Shown: in pieces, positions 29,706 through 37,646 of the stretch
Position numbering within the stretch: the stretch's first letter is position 1
Layout: every line of letters begins with the position of its first letter
Assembly (NCBI GenBank): GCA_016777125.1
Contig: JADHSC010000001.1
Span: 1 to 64,000 of the forward strand
Source: Candidatus Poseidoniaceae archaeon
Lineage (GTDB): Archaea > Thermoplasmatota > Poseidoniia > Poseidoniales > Poseidoniaceae
Direction of reading: 5' to 3'
DNA: 64,000 nucleotides
Position numbers and translations under genes: made by a program
The notes under the pieces: generated by a model
What the model was told of the DNA's origin: nothing
The model's database searches: none
The model's input: the letters and a program-made list of their open reading frames with translations, nothing else

Positions 29706-31271
29706 ATGGTCCAAACACTTCCTTCAATTGATTCGATTCATAACGAAGAAAAAGTAAACACCATCTCAGTCAATGCTTCTGGAGACAAAGTACTGATTGG
29801 AGATTGCAAAGGATCAGTTTTACTCTATTCACTTGATGAAAAAGGCCAGCACCTTGAAAATACATTCAAATTTAGTTCAGCAATAATCGAAGTGATTTGG
29901 CACAATGAAAAGTTCCTCGTCGTTGACGAAGTCGAAGGCGTGCACATGTGCTCCCAGAACGGAGACATCGAGTGGACCTTTGATCTAGAAGCTGGAGGAG
30001 CAAAGGCCTATATCCAGCAACAAATCACTGTTCTCGACGGTCTTGGGACTCTACGTCTTCTCACATTTGATGGTAAAGAGCATGCAACAAAATATCAACA
30101 AATCATCTCGTTTGAACCTCTTCAAGATGGTTTTCTGTTGCTAACAGAACAAAGCGAAGTGAAGAAGATTAATTCATCATTTGAAGAAGTATTCTCTCGA
30201 GAACAGCGAGGCGATATTGGAGAGGACATTGTGCATTATGGCCAAGGCCTCAACTCCACTTGGTTCGTAGCAAGAGAAGGACATGCATTGGTCCCAGGTG
30301 ACGAGGAAGCCCTTGAGATTGAATTCTTTACAGGAAATGAACGCGTTTCTAGGTCTGAAATTACGGGCCGTGTTCGGGCATTCTCTTCCAAAAATGAAAT
30401 CCAATATCTTGGATTAGATAATGGAACAATCATCCACGTTTCGGATGTATACGAATTGACTGAGATACATCAATTTCCTTACGCAATACAATGTTTAGCG
30501 TTAACTGAAAAACACTTAATCGTTGGAACTTGGTTCCATATATATGGCATCAATTTAGTCTCAAGCGAAATAGATTGGACAATTGAGCATAAGGGATTCG
30601 TTGAACAAATCATGATCAACAAGAATCAAACAAAAATGCTCTTTTTTGGAGAAGATCAAAATGACTGGACAGAAGCGGAACCAGTTGGTATCTGCAGTAT
30701 CCATCAACAACCTGTTGAAGTTGATGACTCGTTTCTACAAGGTTGGTTTGAGAAAGAAGTTGTCTTTGCTGAAACAAATCCGGAAGTTGTCTATAGAAAC
30801 GTAGATGACTTTGAATCTCTTTTGTCAGAAGGAGAAAGGGAAATGCTTACGGATTCAGATCGAATTGAAGAATTTGCATTTGATGCATTATCTGATGCAT
30901 TGAATGAAATTAGTCAATCAATTGAAGACATTGATGAAGAAGAAGCCGATGATTTATTGAGCATGCTTCATGAATCGAGTGAAGTATTCATTCCACCATC
31001 AGCTCATGCAGGTGATGACCAAACCTATGTCCTTGAACAGGGAGAAGCATCGCTTATACTGACTCTTGATGCATCGAACACAAATGATCCTCAAAGCAAC
31101 ATTGTTCGCTGGTCATGGCTTGATTCAACTGGAAAGGAGATTGCTACGTCTATGAAGGTGAAGGTAAAACTTCCAATCGGTACGCATCAATTTGAACTGA
31201 GAGTTGAAGCATCAGATGGTGTCTTAACAACGGATTATGTTCGAATCACAATCCTATCCTCAGACTCATGA
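29706..31271 (+). CDS. Cytoplasmic beta-propeller protein with C-terminal PKD-like domain
   Basis: 521 aa without signal peptide or membrane segment. The N-terminal ~330 residues have repeated propeller-blade patterns (VNTISVNASGDKVLIGDCKGSVLLYSL; IEVIWHNEKFLVVDEVEGVHMCSQNGDIEWTF; IQYLGLDNGTIIHVSDV; LIVGTWFHIYGINLVSSEIDWTI), WD40/PQQ-like. An acidic helical linker (residues ~360-430) leads to a C-terminal domain AHAGDDQTYVLEQGEASLILTLDASNTNDPQSNIVRWSWLDSTG that resembles a PKD Ig-like fold. PKD domains are usually extracellular, so the lack of an export signal is odd. Function unknown. Confidence 0.7.
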   Translation: MVQTLPSIDSIHNEEKVNTISVNASGDKVLIGDCKGSVLLYSLDEKGQHLENTFKFSSAIIEVIWHNEKFLVVDEVEGVHMCSQNGDIEWTFDLEAGGAKAYIQQQITVLDGLGTLRLLTFDGKEHATKYQQIISFEPLQDGFLLLTEQSEVKKINSSFEEVFSREQRGDIGEDIVHYGQGLNSTWFVAREGHALVPGDEEALEIEFFTGNERVSRSEITGRVRAFSSKNEIQYLGLDNGTIIHVSDVYELTEIHQFPYAIQCLALTEKHLIVGTWFHIYGINLVSSEIDWTIEHKGFVEQIMINKNQTKMLFFGEDQNDWTEAEPVGICSIHQQPVEVDDSFLQGWFEKEVVFAETNPEVVYRNVDDFESLLSEGEREMLTDSDRIEEFAFDALSDALNEISQSIEDIDEEEADDLLSMLHESSEVFIPPSAHAGDDQTYVLEQGEASLILTLDASNTNDPQSNIVRWSWLDSTGKEIATSMKVKVKLPIGTHQFELRVEASDGVLTTDYVRITILSSDS

Positions 31272-32988: not shown

Positions 32989-33732
32989 TCATAGTACATT
33001 TGCTTCATCACGAAGAAGTTGCGCAACTTGCGAAGCGCTGGCCCCGCCCTCGAAGGTTTTTCCTGTAGGTTTTGCAGGAGGCATTGAGTGAGAAGCGATA
33101 TTGATTGAAGATGTTGGAGCTGTAGCGCTCATGAGTTCCACTTTTGCTTTCTTAGCCATCATGATTCCCTTGACGTTTGGCTTGCGGACTTTGAAATCCC
33201 CTTTATCACACGAAATGACTGCTGGCAAAGCGACATTGATTTTTGCAACCCCTGATTCAACTGGCATTGATACAACCACGGAATCTGAAAATTCTGCCCC
33301 AATAACGTTGGAAGCATTTCCCCAGCCGAGTCTTTCGGCAAGACCAGGCCCTGTAGATCCAGCTCCAGTATCGGCTGCAGACTTTCCGCAGTAGACGACA
33401 GTAGCTCCCAATCCTTGAATTGTTTCTGAAAGAATGCTTTGAAGAGCATTAGAATCAAGATAAGACCAAGAATCATCCCAGACTCGTACGATATTGTCCA
33501 CACCGATTGCCTTTGCGTCCTTGAGAATCTTCTCAGAAACTGGTCCGCCGACTGTAAGTGCTGTTACAGTGCCATCAGTCGCTTCCTTGTGGCGAATTGC
33601 AGTTTCAATTGCGAACTCATCATATGGACTCATGACCATTTTGACGGATGAGAGGTCAACACGGTCCCCTTGGACCACAATTTTTGCATTGGTATCAGGT
33701 ACTTGCTTGACTAAAACAACGATTGTAGGCAT
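32989..33732 (-). CDS. etfB: Electron transfer flavoprotein subunit beta
   Basis: 247 aa from ATG at 33732 (MPTIVVLVKQVPDTNAKI), the standard EtfB start; the ORF track's 305-aa version reads through the upstream spacer and is rejected. SPYDEFAIETAIRHKE and VYCGKSAADTGAGSTGPGLAERLGWG are the AMP/FAD-domain signatures. GAGGAATGA upstream provides an SD. Forms the etfB-etfA operon. Confidence 0.96.
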   Translation of the reverse strand: MPTIVVLVKQVPDTNAKIVVQGDRVDLSSVKMVMSPYDEFAIETAIRHKEATDGTVTALTVGGPVSEKILKDAKAIGVDNIVRVWDDSWSYLDSNALQSILSETIQGLGATVVYCGKSAADTGAGSTGPGLAERLGWGNASNVIGAEFSDSVVVSMPVESGVAKINVALPAVISCDKGDFKVRKPNVKGIMMAKKAKVELMSATAPTSSINIASHSMPPAKPTGKTFEGGASASQVAQLLRDEANVL

Positions 33733-33854
33733 CTGTATCATTCCTCGGAATGAGGCTCGATTCATGAAGATTGGCTTTGCGCCGTTTGTAATTTTGGAAC
33801 AGAAATCAAAAGGACAGGAATCTTTAGAAGCCGTCTGTATTAAGGCCAACTTCC

Positions 33855-34685
33855 ATGTCAGATGAACGAGTATTTCCCGGACCCTCGCCCGCCCAAGCAG
33901 ACACACTCAATGCTTGGAGAGAATTGTTTGAATCCAAACACAGTGAGGACTTCACTTCGTTAAAAGGAACCGATTGTCTTGAGCAACCAATCTTCCCATT
34001 TGAAGTCGATTACAGAGATATTGATCGCAATGATGTCCTAAGCCTATACTTCAACGAAATTCCAGAGAAAACAATCGAACTCGCAAACGAAGTTCTTCGC
34101 ACAATGGTCGCTGAATACGAAGTAAGTGATATTCGATGTATTCTCCGGCCCCTATGCCTCCCTCCTGAGCGTACGAAGAGTATTTCCTCTCTACGAATGA
34201 GAAACAGAGGTACAATTGTCAGTACCGTCGTGCGAATAAAGGATGTTGGACCTCGCTTGGGCTATTTACAAGAAGCGCTTTATGAGTGTGCTCGCTGTGA
34301 ATACAGAGAGACCGTTAAACAGAAAATAGCTCGTGAGAGAATGCGTCCTGAAGGACCTTGTCAAGATTGCTTCGATAAGGCAATGAAAACCTTCGAAGGT
34401 AAAATTCCCTATGTGGTCTATGAACGCCTGAAATCTTCTATGAAACTTACGGCTGAGGGTTCATTTTACAAAGACATTCAATATTTATCTGTTTCAGATA
34501 TTGATGATTCATCTGCACAACCGATTTGGGTTGTTATAGACGACGAGTACGTAGATACTTACAAGATAGGGGATACAGTGAGAATCAATGGTGTTGTCCA
34601 GATAGATCCTGTCCCTGATAGAAACTTCATGAAAGATACTCGACGTATTCTTCAAATTCATGCGTTCAGTATTGAAAGCCTGTGA
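33855..34685 (+). CDS. MCM N-terminal-domain-only protein (no AAA+ motor)
   Basis: 276 aa. FPFEVDYRDIDRNDVLSLYFNEIPEKTIELANEVL matches the helical A domain of MCM (l.Vd..Dl......L...P...i.la). SSLRMRNRGTIVSTVVRIKDVGPRLGYLQEALYECARC is the MCM OB-fold entry (LR..hig.lv.i.GiV.r...v.p.l..a.f.C..C). C145/C148 and C169/C172 form the zinc ribbon, and DIQYLSVSD...DEYVDTYKIGDTVRINGVVQ completes the OB fold. The stop comes where the AAA+ domain should begin, with tyrS convergent 7 bp later, so there is no room for a lost motor. It could cap, load or compete with the replicative MCM. No full-length MCM is in the window. Confidence 0.78.
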   Translation: MSDERVFPGPSPAQADTLNAWRELFESKHSEDFTSLKGTDCLEQPIFPFEVDYRDIDRNDVLSLYFNEIPEKTIELANEVLRTMVAEYEVSDIRCILRPLCLPPERTKSISSLRMRNRGTIVSTVVRIKDVGPRLGYLQEALYECARCEYRETVKQKIARERMRPEGPCQDCFDKAMKTFEGKIPYVVYERLKSSMKLTAEGSFYKDIQYLSVSDIDDSSAQPIWVVIDDEYVDTYKIGDTVRINGVVQIDPVPDRNFMKDTRRILQIHAFSIESL

Positions 34686-34692
34686 AATTATT

Positions 34693-35835
34693 TCAAGAGG
34701 TAATGCTTAGCATTGTCTCGTAAGATTCAGGGTGCTCTTCAAAGTGCTGGGCAATTGAAATCAATCCGTTTGCAACACCTTCTGCAACACCCATTTTCGC
34801 ATCAAAAGGATGGAGTGTGCCATCTTTTACTGCCTGCTTGAATTGTTCAAGGTCATCCCAATTACTCGGTTCTCCAAATTTAGGATTTGGAGTGACGGTG
34901 ATTGATCCAAATTCTGGTAGAACAACATGTTCTGCGAGTTCGTAAACTGGTGAATGATCATCGGCAGGATCGAGGTAAGCCTTCTTCATTTTCTTTTGAA
35001 CGAGTTGGAGTGTATCATGAAGTAAGAGGGCCCCGTTAGGATCGGATTTGCTCATCTTATGATCAAAGGAATCCATTCGAACACCTGAAGCCTTCAATGA
35101 AGAAAGAATAGGGGTATGGAGACATGTTGCCTTCTTCCAGTTCCATTTTGAAGCCATATCTCTCATGAACATGTGGGCCTTTCGTTGATCCATTCCGCCA
35201 AGAGCGACATCAATTTCAAGTTCAAAAATATCTGCAGCCTGCATGGCAGGATAATAGAATTTAGACAAATCATGATCTGATGAACCTTCATCACGTCCCA
35301 TGATGGTGAATGTTTTTCGAACCATTGGCAAAGTTGCCCCCTTCGAACATCGAAGTACTCTTGCCCAATAATCCCCAGAATCCATGAGCGTACTCGCCCA
35401 AACAAATCGAAGTTGCCCAGGGCCTTCTCCTTCCTCTGGATAATCAAGAAGGGCACGGAAGGTTTCTTCCATGTACACACCAGTCTTCTGGATGTCCTCC
35501 ATCTGACCACCGAATTTGTCATTGACCCATGCGTGCCAATCCGCTAGGAAAATCAAGACGTTTGCCTTCGCCTCAAGCATACGCTTTAGTTGAAGCGAGA
35601 GAACCTTCCATCCAATGTGAGCTTTCCCACTCGGTTCAAAACCGACGTAACATCGAATCACTCCATCCCCAGACATTGAGGTCTCATCAGCGAGACAATC
35701 GACAAGGTGGTTGATTCCAACGCATTCTTCAACATCCGAAACCATTAGACTAAGACGCTTACGTTGTTCTTCGTTTAGTTCCTTAATACGTTCATATCTT
35801 TCCTCAAAGGGAGATAGGAGCGTATCGACGTCCAT
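34693..35835 (-). CDS. tyrS: Tyrosyl-tRNA synthetase
   Basis: 380 aa from ATG at 35835 with GAGGTG 5 nt upstream (a GTG two codons earlier is possible). YVGFEPSGKAHIGW is the class I HIGH-like motif in its archaeal/eukaryotic TyrRS context. LADWHAWVNDKFGG and GGMDQRKAHMFMRDM line the Tyr site, and DHKMSKSDPNGALLLHD is the KMSKS loop. The TyrRS rather than TrpRS assignment follows from GGMDQRKAH and the ADWHA segment. Confidence 0.94.
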   Translation of the reverse strand: MDVDTLLSPFEERYERIKELNEEQRKRLSLMVSDVEECVGINHLVDCLADETSMSGDGVIRCYVGFEPSGKAHIGWKVLSLQLKRMLEAKANVLIFLADWHAWVNDKFGGQMEDIQKTGVYMEETFRALLDYPEEGEGPGQLRFVWASTLMDSGDYWARVLRCSKGATLPMVRKTFTIMGRDEGSSDHDLSKFYYPAMQAADIFELEIDVALGGMDQRKAHMFMRDMASKWNWKKATCLHTPILSSLKASGVRMDSFDHKMSKSDPNGALLLHDTLQLVQKKMKKAYLDPADDHSPVYELAEHVVLPEFGSITVTPNPKFGEPSNWDDLEQFKQAVKDGTLHPFDAKMGVAEGVANGLISIAQHFEEHPESYETMLSITS

Positions 35836-35844
35836 GTCCACACC

Positions 35845-36369: not shown

Positions 36370-36458
36370 GTTAGGCCATCGACAGGTGCCTCATAAGTCT
36401 CGCGAAAGAGAAGCCACCTCATGCGGGGGGTTTTTTTGTGTTAATCCCTGCGCCAACT

Positions 36459-37646
36459 ATGCGCAAGATAGTGGCGATAGTCCTGATTGGAGTTCTCCTT
36501 CTACCATTGGCTTCTGCTTCTGAAGTCGAATTTTCTGATTTAACACCGCTTAGTTCTCAGAATCTTGCACTGAATGCCGGTGATCTTTCTCCAGATGGAA
36601 CCACTGTTCTCGTAGTGGGTTCAGATGGTTTTATTCACGGCTTTTCGGGGAATGAACCAGGGGACCGAGGAAAGGATATTTCGATAGACAGTGGTCGCAG
36701 CGCTTCTTTCAATGACATTGCATGGCATCCGAACGGTGAAACTGCACTCATAGCAGGTGATTTAGGAGCAGCCCTACGATATGTTCACTCTGACCAAACA
36801 ATTGAATCCTTAAATGGAGCAACGATTGTGAACGGAATAGAACTTACAAATGTGGAGTGGAGAGCAGGAGGTGATCTTGCTTTCTTTGGAGCACAAAATG
36901 GTAACATTTACAGTTTCAACCAAGGCGAGGGGCTCTCTGAAATAGAAGGCAGTATGAACTCGACAATTACCGATATAGCATGCCATCTTGAACAGAATAT
37001 TTGTGTTGTAACAACTCTCGAAGATGGCATAGGTGTCATCGATAGAACAAGAGAATTAACTTGGATAAGTGGAACCTCTGACCAAGCATGGATGGCGATT
37101 GATTGTCCGGAATCTACGCTCTATACTTGCACTGGATTTGCCAGTGGAAGACAATATCTTTCAATACGCATCGATATAGAGGATGCTTCGAAATCAACTG
37201 GTGATCTTGACGGAGATGGTGAAACAGAAGCGCGTCTTCTGAAAAATGGAGAGAGCGATTTCATCAAACTAAGCCGTGGGTATGATGGAACTACACTCGT
37301 CCATATGGCTCCGATGGAATCAGTTCGATACCAACCTAAATTGAATGAGATTTATCCTCACACATCTTCAGAAGAATTAACCGCATTCAATCCGACTGTT
37401 GCCGGAGATAGTATCACATTTATGTGGGAAAGGGGAGAAAACGATGGATGGATGGTCACAAGCACAGGGAAAATTGTTCAAATAACTCCTGACGAAACAA
37501 CACCAAGCTTGGGAATAATGGAAACAATGGTGTTCACTGCTGTGGCGATTTCGGTTCCTGGAGTGATAATTGGTTTGATTTACATGAATTCCCCGTTTTT
37601 ACAACGTAAATACCGTCAACTGCGAGGCTTTGATAAGAAAAAGTGA
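36459..37646 (+). CDS. Exported, membrane-anchored beta-propeller protein
   Basis: 395 aa from ATG at 36459 (MRKIVAIVLIGVLLLPLASAS), which gives a clean signal peptide; GTG at 36438 would add seven residues in front. The extracytoplasmic part has blade-like repeats (NLALNAGDLSPDGTTVLVVGSDGFIHGF; NDIAWHPNGETALIAGDLGAALRYV; TNVEWRAGGDLAFFGAQNGNIYSF), resembling WD40-type propellers. A C-terminal helix (MVFTAVAISVPGVIIGLIYM) and a basic tail anchor it. Two Cys in CHLEQNIC may form a disulfide. Function unknown. Confidence 0.72.
   Translation: MRKIVAIVLIGVLLLPLASASEVEFSDLTPLSSQNLALNAGDLSPDGTTVLVVGSDGFIHGFSGNEPGDRGKDISIDSGRSASFNDIAWHPNGETALIAGDLGAALRYVHSDQTIESLNGATIVNGIELTNVEWRAGGDLAFFGAQNGNIYSFNQGEGLSEIEGSMNSTITDIACHLEQNICVVTTLEDGIGVIDRTRELTWISGTSDQAWMAIDCPESTLYTCTGFASGRQYLSIRIDIEDASKSTGDLDGDGETEARLLKNGESDFIKLSRGYDGTTLVHMAPMESVRYQPKLNEIYPHTSSEELTAFNPTVAGDSITFMWERGENDGWMVTSTGKIVQITPDETTPSLGIMETMVFTAVAISVPGVIIGLIYMNSPFLQRKYRQLRGFDKKK

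Follow-up and report, generated by a model that had tools for sequence, protein, structure and literature searches.

In this study, we found that mcmN, a gene in a 64,000-nucleotide window (the whole stretch of DNA analyzed here) of a Candidatus Poseidoniaceae archaeon, belongs to a true family of stand-alone MCM N-tier proteins, passed on by inheritance among Poseidoniaceae. We tentatively favor (probability roughly 0.4) the reading, drawn from its sequence, that the product is an MCM accessory protein, which would tune or block loading via its retained N-tier contacts. The host assembly (1.87 Mb in 51 contigs) belongs to a Poseidoniaceae genus that we take to be Marine Group IIa. It also contains one normal full-length MCM, a 724-aa frame on a separate contig (C48), so the ordinary mcm gene that the initial annotation had suggested looking for is present. 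The gene and its two neighbors, both of which are conserved synteny markers, are located as follows:

32989..33750, minus strand: etfB (electron transfer flavoprotein beta), divergent neighbor of mcmN
33855..34685, plus strand: mcmN, gene for a stand-alone MCM N-terminal domain of 276 aa, ATG start
34693..35841, minus strand: tyrS-type aminoacyl-tRNA synthetase gene, convergent neighbor of mcmN

An AAA+ motor is absent from mcmN: the frame closes directly after the last OB strand, its stop and that of the convergent tyrS gene are 7 bp apart, and no motor remnant was found 3' of it. The initial annotation had taken this arrangement to speak against a recent truncation, which was borne out by the lack of a motor remnant and by the conservation of the gene in six genera; a recent truncation of mcm was rejected on the same grounds. 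It had also described a stand-alone MCM N-terminal protein with A domain, OB fold and four Cys, with which the open reading frame, the profile matches and the fold matches all agree. The elements of the protein are:

33906..34148, plus strand: helical A domain, residues 18-98 (hhalign to MCM; aligned to 1LTL)
34149..34274, plus strand: first part of the OB fold, residues 99-140, with a family-specific LRMRxR (alignment to MCM)
34275..34370, plus strand: zinc ribbon, residues 141-172, C145-x2-C148 ... C169-x2-C172 (orthologue alignment)
34371..34442, plus strand: insert following the zinc ribbon, residues 173-196, with a helical prediction; MCM and the orthologues of genus g5 lack it
34443..34682, plus strand: second part of the OB fold, residues 197-276, with Y205 at a ring-interface aromatic position; a loop replaces the MCM allosteric communication loop (ACL)
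34599..34652, plus strand: N-terminal beta-hairpin, residues 249-266, PxRx[FY]x[KR]DTRR, within the second OB part

Searches with the single sequence pointed to MCM: the protein matched NCBIfam MCM over residues 49-265 (E=2.5e-8), Pfam MCM_OB slightly below Pfam's curated cutoff (E=5.5e-5) and, in phmmer, 1LTL (E=0.006). When a profile of nine orthologues was compared with PDB chains, a check against MCM N-terminal structures that had been proposed earlier, the significant matches were all MCMs (1LTL, 3e-18; 4ME3, 1e-13), and their alignments began near residue 13 and thus included the A domain. On its own, the A domain matched the Thermoplasmatota MCM profile (hhalign, 98.7%, E=4.4e-16; best E=0.03 among 60 column-shuffled control versions); it was seen by profile comparison only, and a phmmer search with just this domain of the window protein gave no MCM match. 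The AlphaFold model, for which all input sequences came from one genus, was of moderate quality (pLDDT 69, pTM 0.60) with low confidence in the A domain, and compared with MCM N domains at a TM of about 0.5-0.58. The 50 Foldseek matches listed for this model were all MCM proteins or MCM-containing complexes. In both the PDB profile search and Foldseek, the top matches of the OB fold were MCM rather than RPA/SSB, and other OB/zinc families gave no competing significant match. The outcome that would have spoken against the initial annotation, namely another OB/zinc family with no A domain, was therefore not what we observed.

For residue comparison, we aligned 14 stand-alone proteins (13 of them counted for residues) with 21 full-length MCM N domains; PfMCM numbering assumes a one-residue PDB-chain offset inferred from residue identity. 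The family shares with the archaeal MCM N-terminal domain (1LTL, 4ME3, 4POF/4POG) the A domain, OB fold, zinc ribbon and hairpin, in the same order and of similar length, but has its own gene without AAA+ or winged helix, has lost MSSB and ACL, and carries the insert after the zinc ribbon. The full-length MCM on C48 is homologous to mcmN over residues 10-276 (profile comparison; 21% identity), whereas its N domain changes at a far lower rate and has kept the MSSB Lys and the ACL. The cysteines C145, C148, C169 and C172, whose positions the initial annotation had given exactly, are invariant in 13/13 orthologues and form a candidate zinc site. The full-length MCMs of g5 and g2 (L185, L186) have CxC, not CxxC, as their first zinc motif (CDCGH, CICGY). 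The roles of MSSB and ACL have been described by Froelich et al. (PMC3970758) and in a review (PMC4619765). At the MSSB position (PfMCM R124), the window protein has Asp130 and all 13 stand-alone proteins have D, E, G or S, in contrast with K in 20/21 and R in 1/21 full-length MCMs; at the second MSSB position (R186), most of the compared MCMs themselves have Glu, so that it is uninformative. The ACL columns are 79% identical among MCMs but only 13% among stand-alone proteins, and the QExPExxxGGxQPxR-type ACL motif is absent from the stand-alone proteins in the alignment. At the PfMCM F179 position, all stand-alone proteins compared have Tyr (Y205 in the window protein). The hairpin, with basic residues R256/K260/R263/R264 in the window protein, is the best-conserved part of the family if g5 is left aside; in g5 it is not basic in this manner.

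Orthologues of mcmN occurred in 90 of the 146 Poseidoniaceae genomes, counted by hand as matches clearly above the MCM level, and belonged to six genera: g1 (20/24, plus one remnant), g3 (7/9), g5 (2/2), g7 (1/1), g9 (29/30) and g11 (31/38). The gene was absent from g2 (0/2), g4 (0/5), g6 (0/6), g8 (0/2) and g10 (0/27). The two copies in genome G017 were provisionally attributed to contamination (6%). Among 293 genomes of the phylum, no further stand-alone orthologue was found, and none was seen in the sister family; each of the remaining matches examined was a full-length MCM, a fragment at a contig edge or the provirus protein of L099 described below. With regard to conservation and purifying selection, which the initial annotation had proposed to check, dN/dS among close orthologues was 0.03-0.07 and the gene is conserved across the six genera, which supports both points. 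The order etfB, mcmN, tyrS is common to five genera, and in g5 mcmN adjoins an acyl-CoA dehydrogenase gene of the same neighborhood. In g8 and g10, etfB lies next to tyrS, with about 70 bp and no gene between them. In the tree of neighboring genes, g8 and g10 were sister to the carriers g1, g3, g7, g9 and g11, and g5 grouped with g2 and g6; thus, losses, transfer or both are needed to explain the distribution of mcmN. In six g11 genomes, a single contig carries both flanking genes around an intact empty site; a seventh also has an empty site, and its contig breaks off within etfB. In g1, genome G011 has a decayed remnant between tyrS and etfB (L173:2643-2987), which corresponds to the N-terminal part of mcmN and is truncated and frameshifted; the three other non-carriers have no tyrS match either, so their site was simply not assembled. 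The five genera without the gene and the losses within g11 and g1 show that mcmN is dispensable, and repeated loss means that it cannot be required for helicase loading. As a real gene under selection that is nevertheless lost from time to time, mcmN probably serves as an accessory regulator or a decoy and not as a central component of replication.

Hexamer formation by PfMCM requires the zinc domain, F179 and a basic beta-turn (PMC4627082), and residue by residue these determinants appear to be kept in mcmN (zinc Cys, Y205 and basic hairpin, the hairpin differing in g5). An MCM N half expressed on its own is able to influence the AAA+ half in trans (PMC4619765). As an accessory protein, mcmN might use its zinc domain, interface aromatic and basic hairpin for ring formation or docking with full-length MCM. 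For example, it could then cap the N face, at which one MCM hexamer contacts another, or exchange with it, and helicase loading or double-hexamer formation would be tuned or blocked under some condition. Since both motifs are gone from its sequence, mcmN probably neither holds ssDNA through the MSSB nor is coupled to the AAA+ tier through the ACL. The ssDNA clamp suggested by the initial annotation is hence not supported, at least for binding as it is known from MCM, since 13/13 proteins have lost the MSSB lysine. Its other suggestion, that the protein might join the MCM ring and regulate loading, is conceivable. Loss of the ACL, the route of communication between the N and AAA+ tiers, should also weaken docking on the motor side, and the between-genera identity of mcmN proteins (25-36%, versus 52-76% for MCM-N) is not what one would expect if mcmN were held tightly in a conserved ring.

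The stand-alone proteins grouped as a single clade (100/99) on a long branch, which in the best tree falls outside the Poseidoniales MCMs. Constraining them with Poseidoniaceae MCM was not rejected (p-AU 0.064 and 0.33 in two analyses), and because of the long branch the source of mcmN can be placed only tentatively. A viral source was rejected: searches of IMG/VR, phages and plasmids turned up no close relative, and the mcmN profile scored 66-98 bits against cellular MCMs versus 15-40 bits against viral MCMs.

Motorless MCM-N proteins were also observed elsewhere. One Thermoplasmatota genome encodes a 266-aa protein of this kind (L099:1548-2348, minus strand; also L167), whose gene probably lies in a provirus, judging from two phage integrase genes about 12 kb away and a nearby PrimPol/PolA fusion gene. 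In the tree it fell within another Thermoplasmatota MCM lineage (95/92), and shared ancestry with the mcmN family as a motorless form was rejected (p-AU 0.008), which on phylogenetic grounds indicates that it arose independently; like mcmN it is motorless and has lost the MSSB Lys (Gln there), but it has kept the ACL. The second is a 244-aa Halorussus megaplasmid protein (WP_276282269.1; L171:3830-4564, plus strand; L228, L229) with relatives in six other species (65-83% identity). In the three records examined, the gene encodes 244-245 aa and lies beside a PadR-type regulator; its annotation is hypothetical or MCM. This protein resembles mcmN in being motorless, with Asp at the MSSB position and a short loop replacing the ACL, whereas it is haloarchaeal, plasmid-borne and adjoins the PadR-type regulator; a common origin with mcmN was not rejected (p-AU 0.19). 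The MSSB basic residue is lost in both of these proteins and also in some full-length MGE MCMs, so that its loss is not specific to motorless forms. We would only tentatively propose that motorless MCM N tiers are recurrent accessory replication proteins of archaea and mobile elements, with at least two origins, which as N-face rings or caps might control how the MCM of the cell or of an invader is loaded, while being coupled neither to ssDNA nor to the motor.

Several other explanations should be considered. It is conceivable, though rather unlikely, that mcmN is an independent DNA-binding protein that makes no contact with MCM and forms its own N-tier rings or filaments, with the basic hairpin and LRMRxR as its contacts to duplex or structured DNA. 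Conserved Arg/Lys in the hairpin and OB fold, unlike MCM, would fit such a role, as would the ability of isolated MCM-N domains to form rings and bind DNA (PMC3970758, PMC4627082). However, the canonical ssDNA motif is lost, the hairpin of g5 is not basic in the same way, and the protein as a whole is acidic, with a pI of about 5, although MCM N domains are acidic too. A domesticated, MGE-borne motorless MCM-N that was kept for some chromosomal role appears improbable. The provirus and megaplasmid genes offer precedents, the clade lies outside the Poseidoniales MCMs, and the F179 position is aromatic where Poseidoniales MCMs have Leu or Met; on the other hand, descent from Poseidoniaceae MCM stands unrejected, the provirus protein is of separate origin, and viral contigs, phages and plasmids yielded no close relative.

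An anti-virus decoy, that is, a dominant-negative N tier poisoning the MCM rings of Poseidoniales viruses, seems quite improbable. One virus that infects this host order has an MCM gene of its own (PMC10768690), 40 IMG/VR viral contigs with MCM were retrieved (hosts not assigned), and mcmN is patchy, repeatedly lost and quickly diverging between genera. However, PADLOC gave no match for the window protein and one weak match (0.038) for one family member, the low dN/dS gives no hint of an arms race inside clusters, mcmN matches cellular MCMs better than viral MCMs, and its locus is a stable housekeeping neighborhood. A functionless remnant of an old truncated mcm copy would agree with the missing motor and the decayed copy in G011, but it is extremely improbable, being contradicted by selection: the frame is open in six genera with low dN/dS and invariant cysteines.

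To our knowledge, the usual picture of archaeal MCM is a homohexamer without a dedicated N-tier regulator. Our literature search on stand-alone MCM-N returned nothing relevant, and the mcmN family was not mentioned in the papers searched. As a conserved motorless N-tier paralogue from which exactly the ssDNA-binding and motor-coupling motifs have been removed, mcmN would lend itself to use as a separation-of-function protein and would open a way to study archaeal control of MCM loading or resistance to viral MCMs. Finally, two other proteins near mcmN diverge rapidly between genomes. The product of window positions 29706-31268 (about 25-46% identity) resembles, from weak Pfam matches, a beta-propeller protein with a PKD-like end, and that of 36438-37643 (27-61%) has no Pfam match; for comparison, the nearby acyl-CoA dehydrogenase shows 75-96% identity between genomes.
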